Virus record (IMG/VR): IMGVR_UViG_3300028392_000135
Location: 1-39,664 of that record
Length of the DNA: 39,664 nt
Reading direction: 5' to 3' (one strand)
Origin: a virus
In this document: positions 1-39,664 of the stretch, one piece after another
How positions within the stretch are numbered: the first letter of the stretch is position 1
Layout of the letters: each line of letters opens with the position of its first letter
The notes under the pieces: generated by a model
Database searches by the model: none
Seen by the model: the letters and a program-made list of their open reading frames with translations, nothing else
Told to the model about the DNA's origin: nothing
Position numbers and translations under genes: made by a program

Positions 1-117
1 GATGTGGCAGACTTGAAGCGCCGCATCAAACACAACCTTCACCTGTCGCGTGTCTACGCGAAGGAAGCGGCGACCCTCACGAAGCGGCTGGCAGCGTTAG
101 ACAAAGACAACAAATAA
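1..117 (+). CDS. Small charged hypothetical protein (5' end cut by window edge)
   Basis: These are the last 38 codons of a 46-residue protein whose complete copy lies at the other end of the window (39450-39590). The protein is charged and probably alpha-helical, rich in Lys, Arg, Asp and Ala, with no cysteine and no membrane segment. No family is recognised. Its stop codon TAA is fused to the next Shine-Dalgarno (TAAGGAGC), a joint that recurs in this locus. Confidence 0.6.
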   Translation, partial: DVADLKRRIKHNLHLSRVYAKEAATLTKRLAALDKDNK

Positions 118-122
118 GGAGC
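1..122. repeat. Terminal direct repeat, left copy (part 1)
   Basis: These 122 bases are identical to 39474-39595. Together with the second matching block (597-673) they show that the two ends of the window overlap, as expected when a circular or circularly permuted genome is linearised. The identity stops just after the octamer TAAGGAGC, where the right-hand copy jumps to the sequence found at 605. Confidence 0.97.
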
Positions 123-170
123 GATGAAATGTACGAGACAACGCCACCGCCTTCCGGCGGAATGTAAAAC

Positions 171-341
171 ATGAGAAAGCCTTCTTGGGAAATACGCATT
201 GGTCTAGCGATGATGGGCAGCCTTATGCTTGTCGTTGAAGGAATTGTTATTGCCGCTCCGTTTAGCAGCGTGTGGCCCGCGATTATTTCCGCGCCGTTTT
301 GCCTGACAATAGCGTTTCTATATTTCAAAGAAGCCATTTAG
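171..341 (+). CDS. Small two-helix membrane protein in the variable cassette
   Basis: The reading frame encodes 56 residues. A short basic N-terminus (MRKPSWEIR) is followed by a hydrophobic stretch at about residues 10-30 and a second at about 36-53, so an inner-membrane hairpin is likely. There is no strong ribosome-binding site directly upstream; translation may be coupled to a 12-codon frame that starts at 129 behind an AAGGAG. The whole gene is missing from the allele seen at the right end of the window, so it is dispensable. Function unknown. Confidence 0.5.
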   Translation: MRKPSWEIRIGLAMMGSLMLVVEGIVIAAPFSSVWPAIISAPFCLTIAFLYFKEAI

Positions 342-353
342 GGAGCCGGGACG

Positions 354-434
354 ATGCAGGAACTTCTAATCGGAGAGACGACCACAAGATTTAGGAGTGT
401 CCGAAATACGTATACAAACTTCGGACAAAAATAA
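354..434 (+). CDS. Possible 26-residue peptide in the variable cassette
   Basis: A short frame with a GGGAG upstream encodes a hydrophilic peptide rich in Thr and Arg, and its TAA stop is fused to the next AAGGAG. It is supported only by its position between two better small genes and by the stop/Shine-Dalgarno fusion; no family is recognised. It lies inside the 482-bp segment that the other allele lacks. Confidence 0.3.
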   Translation: MQELLIGETTTRFRSVRNTYTNFGQK

Positions 435-443
435 GGAGCGACC

Positions 444-599
444 ATGCGCGCGAATGGGTATTACTGGATACAGTTGGAAGATGACACCAAATGGCAACCC
501 GCCGAGTTCGAGGACGGCGTGTGGTGGGTCATAGGGTCAGGGGATAAGTGGCCGGAACACGAAATTCACGCCAGTTCTAAAATAGAATATTCAAACTAA
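444..599 (+). CDS. Small Trp-rich phage protein in the variable cassette
   Basis: This 51-residue protein has a good AAGGAG ribosome-binding site 6 bases before ATG. The pattern YYW-hydrophobic-Q-L, then WQPAEF and WWVIGSG, resembles small phage proteins of unknown role that contain two tryptophan clusters (DUF551-like layout); this is recognition by pattern, not a firm family assignment. It is acidic, soluble and lacks cysteine. Its TAA stop overlaps the octamer TAAGGAGC that carries the Shine-Dalgarno of the methyltransferase gene. The gene is absent from the shorter allele. Confidence 0.6.
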   Translation: MRANGYYWIQLEDDTKWQPAEFEDGVWWVIGSGDKWPEHEIHASSKIEYSN

Positions 600-673
600 G
601 GAGCCGCCGTGCATCAGTCGCAGTTAGCGCCAGCAGAAAACAAATTCCACCGGGGCAACGGTGAGGATGGAAA
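597..673. repeat. Terminal direct repeat, left copy (part 2)
   Basis: These 77 bases are identical to 39588-39664, the last bases of the window. In the right-hand copy this block follows directly after the 1-122 block, sharing the octamer TAAGGAGC, so the 482 bases between the two octamers are absent there. It includes the ribosome-binding site, the GTG start and the first codons of the methyltransferase gene. Confidence 0.97.
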
Positions 674-27135: not shown

Positions 27136-27620
27136 TGCTGCGGAAATAGCAAGGCTTGGTAGGGTAAAAATATTCGTGCGGCCAGCCGGTAGCCATAGAG
27201 CCAGGGGGCCCACCGGGTTCGAGAGGGGGGCGGGGGGTCATGTTTTCACTGTATGCATACAGGGGATATATCTTTTTGCGTGCGGATGCGGATTGCTCAT
27301 AATATAGAATTATACGCGGATGATGATAATAAGCACGCGTTACCAATAGCATAGCGTTTTAGGTTGTAGCGCGGGATGGCAGTAATGCAATGCCTAGTTG
27401 CAACGGTGCCTGTATGCCACGCCGACTACCCAGCTCATGCCAGCCCGCGCCCCTCAATAGCGCGCACCCGTAGCAGCGCGGCCGGCATGGCGCGTCACCC
27501 ATAGGCCGCCGGCCATAGCGTCCCCAGGCGGCTCCAGGCGTGCCTATCAGGGTGCCTTTGGGTGCCTGCTTTCCTCCCGTTCCCCGCCCTCGCTGGCGCC
27601 CGTGCAAAGCCTGTCCCGGC

Positions 27621-34984: not shown

Positions 34985-35386
34985 ATGCGAACAAACCTGC
35001 CGCCTGATACATTAGAAGAACTGGCCGAGGATTGGCTGATACATAAGCAAGCCGAGAAAGCCGCAAACTTCCGACGCCTTGAAGTGGAAGAGGCCCTGCT
35101 AGGGTTACTGGGCGCCAACGCGGACGAAGGCACATTTAACCGCAAACTGCGTAACGGTCTTAGGATCAAGGCGCGTTATAGCTTGAATTACAAAGGCGAC
35201 TACGAGCTTATCAATCCGCTTGTGCAGGGCTGGGATACGGCCGAACGCCCGTTCAAGACTGTTGTGGACGAGGCCGCGTTAAAGCGTATCCGCAACGATA
35301 GCCCGGAGAGGTGGAAGCGTATCGCCATTGGCGTGACCGTCAAGCCGGCCAAAACCTCCATCACAATTGAAAGCGAAGAAAAATGA
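34985..35386 (+). CDS. Gam/Gp157-like or DUF7173-type protein, first of the recombination operon
   Basis: The 133-residue product has a helical N-terminal region (LPPDTLEELAEDWLIHKQAE, then LEVEEALLGLL) and a C-terminal strand-rich part (LRIKARYSLNYKGDYELINP, ending with TVKPAKTSITIESEEK). The layout resembles small phage proteins that accompany annealing recombinases, but the exact family is uncertain. The start has GGGGAA upstream; the stop overlaps the Sak4 start (ATGA). Confidence 0.55.
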   Translation: MRTNLPPDTLEELAEDWLIHKQAEKAANFRRLEVEEALLGLLGANADEGTFNRKLRNGLRIKARYSLNYKGDYELINPLVQGWDTAERPFKTVVDEAALKRIRNDSPERWKRIAIGVTVKPAKTSITIESEEK

Positions 35387-36114
35387 GCTTTGACCTTAAG
35401 AGCATCCAGAAAAGCACGGCTAGTGCCGCGCCGCGCATTATGCTGTACGGCGTGGAGGGCATCGGCAAGACGACATTTGCCAGCCAGGCGCCGAACCCGG
35501 TCTTTATCCTGACCGAAGACGGGCTTGGTAGCTTGCAGGTAAACCACTTCCCGCTGTGCAAAAGCAGCGACGATGTGATGACCGCCATTGGCAGCCTGTA
35601 CACGGACAAGCATGACTTCCGTACCGTGGTGATCGACAGCTTGGACTGGCTGGAGGCTATCATTCAGAACGAGATTGAAACCAAGTTCGACGCCAAGGAT
35701 CTGGCGTATGGTAAGGGCGCTATCATCGCTGCGCAGAAGTGGCGTGAGGTTCTGGATGGGCTGAACGCGCTGCGCAACGACAAGGGCATGATCGTCATCC
35801 TGCTGGCGCATACGACCATTAAGCGTTTCGACAGTCCCGAAGTCGAGCCGTACGACCGCTACCAGCCGAAGCTGCAAGAGCGCAGCAACGCCGTGGTACG
35901 CGAGTGGGCTGACGCGGTGCTGTTTGCGAACTACAAGACTATTGTGAAAAAAGACGCAGTTGGCTTTAACCAGACCAACAATCGCGGCATCAGCACGGGA
36001 GAGCGGCTGCTTTACACCAGCGAGCGCCCTGCCTACATGGCGAAGAACCGTTACGCCATGCCTGAGACCATCCCGTTTACCTGGGATGACTTTACCAACG
36101 CAATCGGAAACTAA
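35383..36114 (+). CDS. Sak4-like RecA-family recombination ATPase (AAA_24)
   Basis: The 243-residue product has Walker A GVEGIGKTT at 23-31, a DGLGSLQ strand, Walker B TVVIDSLD with Asp85, and VILLAHTTIKRF as the later sensor segment. This is the pattern of phage AAA_24 proteins of the Sak4 group, which act in single-strand annealing and need a phage SSB-like partner. The neighbour DUF669 gene is that partner in other phages. It would act in replication-linked recombination of phage DNA. Confidence 0.85.
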   Translation: MSFDLKSIQKSTASAAPRIMLYGVEGIGKTTFASQAPNPVFILTEDGLGSLQVNHFPLCKSSDDVMTAIGSLYTDKHDFRTVVIDSLDWLEAIIQNEIETKFDAKDLAYGKGAIIAAQKWREVLDGLNALRNDKGMIVILLAHTTIKRFDSPEVEPYDRYQPKLQERSNAVVREWADAVLFANYKTIVKKDAVGFNQTNNRGISTGERLLYTSERPAYMAKNRYAMPETIPFTWDDFTNAIGN

Positions 36115-36125
36115 GGAACCAAACC

Positions 36126-36581
36126 ATGCCTATCATCGACTTTGACGCATCGACCTATGACAAGCCCGTAAGCAGCTTTGAGCCGCTGCCGCCGGGCGAT
36201 TATCTCGCTATTGTCGCCAGCAGCGAGGCCAAGGTAACTAAGTCCGGCACGGGCGAGTATGTAGAGTTTGTGCTGAACATCATGCAGGACCCTTACAAGG
36301 GGCGTAAGATTTGGGAGCGTTTGAACATTCACAACGAGAACAAGGTGGCCGAAGACATCGCCCGCGGCGCCTTGAACGCCATGTCTGACGCTTGCGGCGT
36401 GGCGCTGCTTAAGGACACCAACCAGCTCCACGACATTCCCATGACCATTACCCTGGCGCTGGACCGCAAGGACCCGACCCGCAATTCCGTGCGCGGGTAC
36501 AAGAAGGCCGCCGGGTCCAAGCCCGCAGCGGTCAAGGCGGCATCTTCCGCCGGCGTCGCCAAGCAGCCGTGGCAGCGGTAA
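36126..36581 (+). CDS. DUF669 SSB-like protein
   Basis: The 151-residue product begins with FDASTYDKPVSSFEPLPPGD and YLAIVASSEAKVTKSGTG, followed by YVEFVLNIMQDPYKGRKIWE and the ending RNSVRGYKKA with a basic disordered tail. This is the DUF669 pattern. Members bind single-stranded DNA in an OB-like fold and stimulate Sak4-type annealing. The gene lies directly after the Sak4-like gene, with AAGGAA 7 bases before the ATG. Confidence 0.85.
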   Translation: MPIIDFDASTYDKPVSSFEPLPPGDYLAIVASSEAKVTKSGTGEYVEFVLNIMQDPYKGRKIWERLNIHNENKVAEDIARGALNAMSDACGVALLKDTNQLHDIPMTITLALDRKDPTRNSVRGYKKAAGSKPAAVKAASSAGVAKQPWQR

Positions 36582-36582
36582 A

Positions 36583-37611
36583 ATGGTAGCGATACCCGAA
36601 CCCAGGCAGACGACTGCCAAGGCCATCTACGACGACTACGTTGCCCGCAACGCGGCAGAACCGCCGCGCGAGCACCTTGGCGCGTCCCTGATCGGGCATC
36701 ACTGCGAACGCTACCTGTGGCTTACCTTCCGCTGGGCTGTCACGCCTAGCTTTAGCGGGCAACTGCTACGGCTATTTGAGACAGGCCGGCGGGAGGAGCC
36801 GCGCATTCATGCCGAACTGCGCCGCATTGGCGTGGAACTGCACATTGACAACGACGGCAAGCAGATAGCCTGCCGCGACGCTGGCGGCCATTTTGGCGGG
36901 TCCGTGGACGGCATTGGCAAGGGCTTCCCAGAGGCCCCGAAGGCCTGGGCGGTGCTGGAATGCAAGACCATGAACACCAAGTCCTTTGCCGATACCAAGG
37001 CCAAGGGCGTCAAGGCGTCAAAGCCGCAGCACTACGCGCAGATGCAGACGTATATGAACCTACTGAAGATCGACCGCGCCATGTATATCGCGGTGTGCAA
37101 GGACACGGACGAGCTTTGGTGCGAGTGGGTGCACGAGGACAAGCAGGTTGGCGAGGACATGCTGACCAAGGCTTGCCGCGTACTGGGCGCTAGGACACCA
37201 GCCGCAAAGATCAGCGAAGACCCGGCGAACTGGCAGTGCAAGATGTGCGACGCATGGAAGTTTTGCCACCAGGAAGAGCGGGCGAACAAGAACTGCCGCA
37301 CATGCTGCCATTCCACGCCGGTCGCAGACGGGCGCTGGCATTGCTCGCTGCACGACAAGGGCTTGAGCGCCCGCGAGCAGCAGCTAGGGTGCGAGGGGCA
37401 TTTGTATATCCCCGACATGCTGCCCGGCCTGACACCCGTGGACGGCGACACGAACCATATTGACTATATCGCTAAGGACGGCAGCACGTTCCGCGATGGG
37501 CCACCGGCGAAGGCTACAGGCGGGCGCAAGAGGCGCACAACGGCCGCGCCCAAGGGGCCAGTGCTTGAGCCGTATAGCGACCCGGAGCTTAACGATGAGG
37601 TGCCATTTTGA
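36583..37611 (+). CDS. Cas4/RecB-like PD-(D/E)XK nuclease with iron-sulphur-type cysteines
   Basis: The 342-residue product has the nuclease core with Asp109 (GGSVDGIG), Glu126-Cys-Lys128 (LECKT) and a Gln-rich helix QHYAQMQTYM. Cys41 lies before the core, and Cys219, Cys222 and Cys228 follow it in CKMCDAWKFC, the usual layout of the iron-sulphur cluster in Cas4 and AddB. A second Cys/His group (NCRTCCH, then WHCSLHD and GCEGH) may bind zinc. It probably resects DNA ends for the Sak4 pathway. No CRISPR genes are nearby. Confidence 0.85.
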   Translation: MVAIPEPRQTTAKAIYDDYVARNAAEPPREHLGASLIGHHCERYLWLTFRWAVTPSFSGQLLRLFETGRREEPRIHAELRRIGVELHIDNDGKQIACRDAGGHFGGSVDGIGKGFPEAPKAWAVLECKTMNTKSFADTKAKGVKASKPQHYAQMQTYMNLLKIDRAMYIAVCKDTDELWCEWVHEDKQVGEDMLTKACRVLGARTPAAKISEDPANWQCKMCDAWKFCHQEERANKNCRTCCHSTPVADGRWHCSLHDKGLSAREQQLGCEGHLYIPDMLPGLTPVDGDTNHIDYIAKDGSTFRDGPPAKATGGRKRRTTAAPKGPVLEPYSDPELNDEVPF

Positions 37612-38755: not shown

Positions 38756-38785
38756 TTGACAGGCTTTGTCAAATCGGCCTATAAA
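38756..38785 (+). promoter_or_regulatory. Recombinase promoter with overlapping palindrome
   Basis: TTGACA (38756-38761, perfect -35) is followed after 18 bases by TATAAA (38780-38785, near-perfect -10). The -35 is also the left half of an inverted repeat TTGACA-N5-TGTCAA (38756-38772), so a dimeric protein could block the promoter. The last base of the -10 is the A of the first in-frame ATG of the recombinase frame, which is not compatible with that ATG being the start. Confidence 0.55.
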
Positions 38786-39441
38786 TGCCCATGCGCCATT
38801 TGACGAAAACAATAGTCGCCACCGCCGCCCCCAAAGGGGAACTTATTGGCTACGCGCGGGTGTCCACCGCAGATCAGGTCTTGGACCTACAGATTTCCGC
38901 GCTGAAAAAAGCCGGGTGCTTTCACGTTCACGAGGAACCGGCCACGAGTGGCGCGAAGAAAAACCGCCCGGTACTGGACATGGCGATCAAAGACCTGCGC
39001 CCCGGCGATACGCTGGTGGTGTGGCGGCTGGACAGGCTCTCCCGGTCCATAAAAGACCTGTACGAGCGCCTAGCCCAGATTGAGGCGGCTGGGGCCGGGT
39101 TCAAGTCCCTGACCGAAGCCTTTGACTTCACCACAGCCACAGGGCGGCTCGTCCTTGGCATGTTGGCGATCATGGCAGAGTTTGAGCGCCAGCTTACGAT
39201 TGAGCGCACCAAGGCCGGAATGGCCGTCCTGAAAGACAAGGGCCACATGCTGGGCGCACCCAAGAAGCTGGACGCTAAGCTGCGGGCCAAGGGCGCAAAG
39301 ATGCTCAAGGAAAAGGTCCGCAAGAAGATCGGCGGCAAGACTGTCTGGCGTCCGCGCTATACCAAGGCCAAGATTGCTGAGGCGCTAAAGGTCAGCACTG
39401 GCACGGTTTACAATCTTCTAAACGAATTGAACGAAAGATAG
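38785..39441 (+). CDS. Serine recombinase (resolvase/invertase type)
   Basis: The product (218 residues from the first ATG) has a resolvase catalytic domain with YARVSTADQ (Ser27), then VWRLDRLSRS and LTEAFDFTTATGRLVLGMLA, IMAEFERQL and an E-R-T-x-A-G segment, followed by a C-terminal helix-turn-helix (YTKAKIAEALKVSTGTVYNL). It is of small resolvase size, not a large serine integrase. It would resolve multimers or invert a segment. The start is uncertain: two ATG codons have no ribosome-binding site and one overlaps the promoter. TTG at 38800 or a rare ATT at 38845, which has AAAGGGG upstream and puts the conserved IGYARVS near the N-terminus, are alternatives. Confidence 0.8.
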   Translation: MPMRHLTKTIVATAAPKGELIGYARVSTADQVLDLQISALKKAGCFHVHEEPATSGAKKNRPVLDMAIKDLRPGDTLVVWRLDRLSRSIKDLYERLAQIEAAGAGFKSLTEAFDFTTATGRLVLGMLAIMAEFERQLTIERTKAGMAVLKDKGHMLGAPKKLDAKLRAKGAKMLKEKVRKKIGGKTVWRPRYTKAKIAEALKVSTGTVYNLLNELNER

Positions 39442-39449
39442 GAGCGACG

Positions 39450-39590
39450 ATGGACATAGAAGCAAAGGACGATGATGTGGCAGACTTGAAGCGCCGCATC
39501 AAACACAACCTTCACCTGTCGCGTGTCTACGCGAAGGAAGCGGCGACCCTCACGAAGCGGCTGGCAGCGTTAGACAAAGACAACAAATAA
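39450..39590 (+). CDS. Small charged protein, complete copy
   Basis: The 46-residue frame is the complete version of the gene cut at the left edge. ATAGGAGCGACG precedes its ATG and is similar to the leaders of the cassette genes. The product is acidic at the start (MDIEAKDDDVADLKRRIK) and basic and helical afterwards. In this copy its stop is fused to the octamer TAAGGAGC and the methyltransferase gene follows directly, without the 482-bp cassette. Confidence 0.6.
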   Translation: MDIEAKDDDVADLKRRIKHNLHLSRVYAKEAATLTKRLAALDKDNK

Positions 39591-39595
39591 GGAGC
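39474..39595. repeat. Terminal direct repeat, right copy (part 1)
   Basis: Identical to 1-122 and part of the 191-base end overlap that closes the genome. It ends at TAAGGAGC, after which the sequence matches 605 onward rather than 123 onward. Confidence 0.97.
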
Positions 39596-39664
39596 CGCCG
39601 TGCATCAGTCGCAGTTAGCGCCAGCAGAAAACAAATTCCACCGGGGCAACGGTGAGGATGGAAA
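39588..39664. repeat. Terminal direct repeat, right copy (part 2), with truncated methyltransferase start
   Basis: Identical to 597-673. It contains the ribosome-binding site, the GTG start and about 21 codons of the methyltransferase gene, cut by the window edge. It shows that the shorter allele keeps this gene in frame and with its own Shine-Dalgarno. Confidence 0.97.

Follow-up and report, generated by a model that had tools for sequence, protein, structure and literature searches.

It has long been asked how phages gain and lose genes one by one while the closely packed genes on either side stay intact. The usual answers are random breakage followed by selection, and special border sequences. 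According to the passages on mosaicism in PMC2327257 and the references given there, it is established that mosaic borders lie at gene borders, that illegitimate or short-homology recombination is involved and that short sequences can be shared at the borders. The lambdoid phages, for instance, carry short conserved sequences at their module borders (Clark et al. 2001, as cited in PMC2327257). The locus described here is similar, since short shared sequences at gene borders are the exchange points. However, the shared sequence is an 8-bp translation signal itself and not a family-wide linker. RecET recombines repeats of 5–13 bp at low frequency (as cited in PMC2327257). As in such short-repeat deletions, the repeat here flanks the lost segment and one copy stays. 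In contrast, our repeat is a merged stop codon and Shine-Dalgarno (SD) sequence, the product is translationally intact, and the event is a natural one and not a laboratory observation.

Small-gene blocks with comparable behaviour have also been described. Cyanophage S-PM2 lost an ORFan region of 9.5 kb with 33 ORFs, for which mispackaging was proposed in the passages on the loss (PMC4503421). There too, small orphan genes disappear as a block, the rest is kept and both forms coexist; those same passages report no stop/SD joint, which is the difference from our locus. The promoter-early stem-loop (PeSL) cassettes of T4-type phages, as discussed in the same paper (PMC4503421), likewise involve the shuffling of small accessory genes, with regulatory elements as the repeated sequences, whereas the repeat here is a translation signal. 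An assignment to PeSL was rejected because promoter-like and terminator-like sites in our segment stayed at chance level in a generic sigma-70 scan. The start-associated sequences (SAS) of cluster K mycobacteriophages, with the 13-bp consensus GGGATAGGAGCCC (PMC3203893), resemble our boxes in being an AGGAG repeat in front of non-structural genes that sometimes includes the upstream stop codon. However, SAS mostly occupy gaps of more than 50 bp and our boxes lie in gaps of a few bases; the SAS were rejected, as GGGATAGGAGCCC gave 0 matches with up to 2 mismatches allowed. Integron gene cassettes were rejected as well, because the octamers have no inverted repeat (no attC-like site) and the nearby recombinase is a serine recombinase. 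The locus illustrates known phage mosaicism cleanly in a natural case, and what sets it apart is that a translation signal serves as the recombining repeat. SD boxes acting as mosaic microhomology were not found described in the literature searched, whose coverage is thin for subscription papers. Here both forms were caught together, identical but for the block and with the joint known to the base.

Genome setting and the small-gene array

The window is the whole 39,664-bp IMG/VR virus contig IMGVR_UViG_3300028392_000135. Its leftward gene block encodes the terminase large subunit, the portal and the major head protein. The top GenBank matches of the terminase are phages of 35–41 kb, many with aquatic hosts, and Rhodoferax phage P26218 is among the best of them at 44% protein identity. 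At the DNA level, no GenBank phage came near window positions 1–25000. A palindrome, CTGTATGCATACAG, lies at 27240–27271 as part of an imperfect inverted repeat of 23 nt, close to where the leftward and rightward gene blocks adjoin, and is possibly an operator. A replication and recombination set with a Sak4-like annealing protein, an SSB and a Cas4-domain exonuclease is encoded side by side. The features of this set and of the array are as follows.

35383–36114, + strand: Sak4-like single-strand annealing protein (phrog_124, E 8e-47)
36126–36581, + strand: single-strand DNA-binding protein, SSB (phrog_6015, E 4e-35)
36583–37611, + strand: Cas4-domain exonuclease (phrog_1990, E 2.5e-98)
38785–39441, + strand: serine recombinase (resolvase/invertase type), a mobile single-gene block with a TAGGAGC box at its end
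39450–39590, + strand: 46-aa small gene upstream of the cassette, its 3' part repeated at 1–117
39588–39595, + strand: TAAGGAGC box of the short allele, joining the 46-aa gene straight to the methyltransferase
39596–39664, + strand: methyltransferase start in the short allele, identical to 605–673
115–122, + strand: TAAGGAGC box at the left end of the variable segment
123–604, + strand: 482-bp presence/absence segment, absent at 39588–39664 and in L004/L091
129–167, + strand: 12-aa ORF, weak gene candidate, 7 nt past the GGAG of the left box
171–341, + strand: 56-aa hydrophobic protein (Kyte-Doolittle 19-residue maximum 2.17)
354–434, + strand: 26-aa ORF, weak gene candidate, after a merged TAGGGAGC box at 339–346
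432–439, + strand: internal TAAGGAGC box, with 13 bp (AAATAAGGAGCGA) in common with the left box
444–599, + strand: 51-aa Trp-rich protein, no family match
597–604, + strand: TAAGGAGC box at the right end of the variable segment
609–1106, + strand: Dam-like DNA methyltransferase (phrog_111; Pfam Dam sub-threshold)
1119–1286, + strand: 55-aa gene with a merged TAGAGGAGC box in front (1104–1112)

The segment holds up to four short ORFs (12, 56, 26 and 51 aa). The 56-aa protein probably has one or two membrane helices. The 51-aa protein is predicted, with modest confidence, to be mostly beta, and its model (pLDDT 69) gave no fold match. Searches of Pfam, PHROGs, GenBank phages and IMG/VR returned no convincing relatives of the cassette proteins, and Rfam returned no structured-RNA match.

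The exact joint and the two alleles

The two ends of the contig overlap exactly, with 1–122 equal to 39474–39595 and 605–673 equal to 39596–39664. The left end then continues into the 482-bp segment. At the right end the 46-aa gene runs directly into the methyltransferase (39588–39664), just as the original prediction had described. Since the identity ends at the octamer on either side, the shared direct repeat at the two segment ends is exactly 8 bp. The short joint keeps a single copy of it and lacks exactly 123–604 (482 bp). The octamer TAAGGAGC had been predicted at 115–122 and 597–604, with a similar joint inside the segment at 432. All of these were found, together with a fourth copy (39588–39595), and there are no others on either strand. 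Four copies compare with a shuffle mean of 0.83, and 0 of 100 shuffles reached four.

All four copies are a merged stop codon and SD sequence. The TAA terminates the 46-aa gene, the GGAG is the SD of the following gene, and the methyltransferase starts with GTG at 609, 4 nt after GGAGC. Both flanking genes are intact and read identically in the long and short alleles. The claim that removal of 123–604 would spare the neighbours was thus borne out, with stop codon, SD and GTG spacing all retained. Another merged box, TAGGAGC at 39439–39445, precedes the 46-aa gene, and six successive joints of the array are merged stop/SD boxes where 0.29 would be expected. TAAGGAG is complementary to the end of 16S rRNA. 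Therefore, a merged stop/SD box is expected to recur from translation alone. The TAAGGAGC box is best explained by translation, with recombination as a by-product.

Both alleles, long with 123–604 and short without it, were confirmed as real in independent contigs. The short joint is internal to IMGVR_UViG_3300027777_000659, a 6,046-bp contig from another dataset, which matches the window over 5,013 bp (joint and left side) and 1,113 bp (joint and right side). Only the base directly before the octamer is mismatched, and there the alleles differ by definition. Aside from the segment, the alleles show no difference in the stretches compared. The long joint was found in contigs 3300027708_001097 and 3300027741_000742, which close the circle: they cover the stretch from the recombinase gene to 39595 and continue into the segment up to window positions 213 and 132, respectively. 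Another contig, 3300010885_006358 (L129; 13,235 bp, 99.99% identical), starts exactly at window position 597. This is the first base common to both alleles, and so the place where a de Bruijn fork is expected if both are present.

An assembly or library artefact, such as a chimeric read or an amplification jump at the 8 bp, might be suspected from the position of the two alleles at the contig ends. It is very improbable, because a distinct contig, from a different dataset, has the short joint in its interior with kilobases to either side and because a further contig begins exactly at the fork. The doubt whether only one allele is real, raised by the original prediction itself, is answered in this way. 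Its suggestion that two variants shared the sample is likely to be right, since both alleles are present in the window's own assembly and 3300010885_006358 starts at the octamer. As a side observation, the left octamer ends at base 122 of the window, and a node of 122 bases is what an assembly graph forking there would give at k = 123, a setting used for JGI assemblies.

Origin of the short allele

The short allele was probably produced by one recent deletion between the 8-bp TAAGGAGC direct repeats, which left one copy behind. That the event was recent follows from the alleles having no other differences in the compared stretches. The direction (loss and not gain), the single event and the machinery are what we infer. 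The phage population has two alleles of the small-gene array between the serine-recombinase gene and the methyltransferase. In the proposed course of events, the repeat arose because UAAGGAG unites a stop codon and an SD sequence in a tightly packed operon. Since the repeat is the stop/SD signal, such a deletion would drop whole genes without altering the stop codon, ribosome-binding site or spacing of the genes on either side. The use of a repeat was assessed against all 73,920 pairs of breakpoints that take out 100 bp or more while sparing the upstream stop codon and the downstream GGAGC. Microhomology of at least 8 bp was present in 31 of them (0.04%), so the use of the repeat is unlikely to be due to chance. 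The longest repeat of the array, 13 bp at 115/432, is not the one that was used.

The deletion might have occurred by replication slippage or through annealing by the Sak4/SSB/exonuclease set of the phage; simple slippage would give the same product as annealing. The Sak4 protein of phage HK620 anneals single strands and is stimulated by SSB (PMC5928155). Sak4 and SSB may be plausible helpers of the deletion here, judging from gene content.

Loss is the most likely direction and gain is less likely, because deletion takes one step and is simpler than the insertion of a fitting block. No outgroup carrying the locus was found, as flank pattern searches of IMG/VR matched only this phage, and parsimony therefore does not separate the two. 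The neighbouring exonuclease has its next relatives at about 64% protein identity or less, apart from the phage's own contig. If the short allele were ancestral, the 482-bp block would have been inserted at the TAAGGAGC box, either from a circular form carrying a single box or through a pair of exchanges at boxes. This unlikely course finds some favour in the composition of the segment, whose GC content of 48.8% is below the 56.2% of the window (only 3.4% of 482-bp windows fall lower), and in its genes being without relatives, which is typical of newly acquired phage genes. However, the adjacent small genes are likewise AT-richer than the genome (52.5% GC for the 46-aa gene and 49.4% for the 55-aa gene), and a donor with fitting boxes would be required, of which none was found. 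Allele replacement is less probable still. In that case homologous recombination with a sister phage already lacking the segment would have brought in an older octamer joint. Long and short forms do circulate in closely identical phages, but the flanks are base-identical in both alleles, leaving no trace of a second genome, and the replacement would only shift the origin of the joint to an earlier time.

The serine recombinase gene adjoins the segment with only the 46-aa gene intervening, which brings to mind a site-specific deletion at sites containing TAAGGAGC. Serine recombinases require a crossover site that has inverted half-sites and a length of about 28 bp. Beyond the two octamers, identity over the 20-nt flanks amounts to 7/20 and 4/20 positions, which is about chance, and no inverted repeat with at least 9 of 14 pairs surrounds any octamer. 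Furthermore, the gene is present in unrelated phages without the octamer array. A resolvase-mediated deletion is hardly credible and was rejected, as an extended crossover site is absent beyond the octamers.

The recombinase gene attracted attention as a single-gene mobile block in its own right, with 86–88% DNA identity between otherwise dissimilar phages. The block of L094 (5986–6637) matches that of L095 (5962–6613) at 86% over 652 bp, and the two have nothing else in common at the DNA level in the stretches compared. Their shared block extends exactly to the end of the TAGGAGC box that follows the recombinase stop codon. The block of L097 (5816–6596) matches that of L098 (5817–6596) at 88% over 781 bp. 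Its right edge lies 3 nt beyond a TAGGGAGC box and its left edge at about the GGAGC of a divergent gene; otherwise, these two phages share only short pieces of 70–80% identity, in other places and in opposite orientation. The genes after the recombinase, behind TAGGAGC or TAGGGAGC boxes, are entirely different in every case. Downstream of the recombinase in seven such phages, 18 merged stop/SD boxes were counted against about 2 expected. A scan of genome contigs returned a single distant resolvase.

Gene joints in other phages

The original prediction viewed the array as one in which any unit can be lost or gained by recombination at identical boxes. In part this agrees with the comparison of related loci, where differing gene contents are bounded by similar stop/SD boxes. 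Within this phage, however, only one of the three possible box deletions was seen: IMG/VR held the long and the 115/597 arrangements, and neither the 115/432 nor the 432/597 deletion. Beyond this phage, the octamer is not a common site. Among 78 relatives of the methyltransferase, TAAGGAGC was at the start joint in none, and a stop/SD-merged joint of any kind in 13. The gene upstream belonged to 58 families among the 67 found. The absence of the octamer from these joints and the variety of upstream families show that it is not an attachment site travelling with the genes, and a conserved attachment site beside the methyltransferase was rejected.

Seven gene-sized one-sided indels were found in other phages, all at gene joints. 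They come from the available locus pairs of about 88% identity or more, a set that is small, diverged and read by eye with no formal null. Five lie at SD/start boxes (two in L108/L112, and one each in L112/L123, L114/L116 and L188/L189), the L019/L025 indel is next to the methyltransferase at an ATGA where start and stop overlap, and the L189/L190 indel lies at a stop codon only, without clear microhomology. SD and/or start signals are thus involved in six of the seven. A preference for gene joints would also be expected if selection did no more than keep the neighbouring genes intact.

It is conceivable, though doubtful, that stop/SD/start boxes are the usual microhomology for the loss, gain and exchange of accessory genes in compact phages. 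If true, every gene joint would become a crossover point that repairs itself, as a result of selection for ribosome binding, and the position of mosaic borders at gene borders would be explained without a dedicated site. Should this be a general rule, much of the mosaicism at phage gene borders would be accounted for by translation signals alone.

The L019/L025 indel (L019:5466–5474 against L025:3988–4289) concerns a single gene of about 100 aa directly behind the methyltransferase, which one of the two phages has and the other lacks; the phages are about 93–96% identical. The L188/L189 indel (L188:6045–6365 against L189:6627–6646) is one gene long and lies between near-identical AGGAGGC(T/G)GCATGA SD/start boxes. 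As a separate observation, two direct repeats of 185 bp, 98% identical, flank the methyltransferase gene in L008 (4642–4826 and 5818–6002; also in L010 and L011). They carry terminal inverted repeats of 24–27 bp and resemble a pair of miniature inverted-repeat elements.
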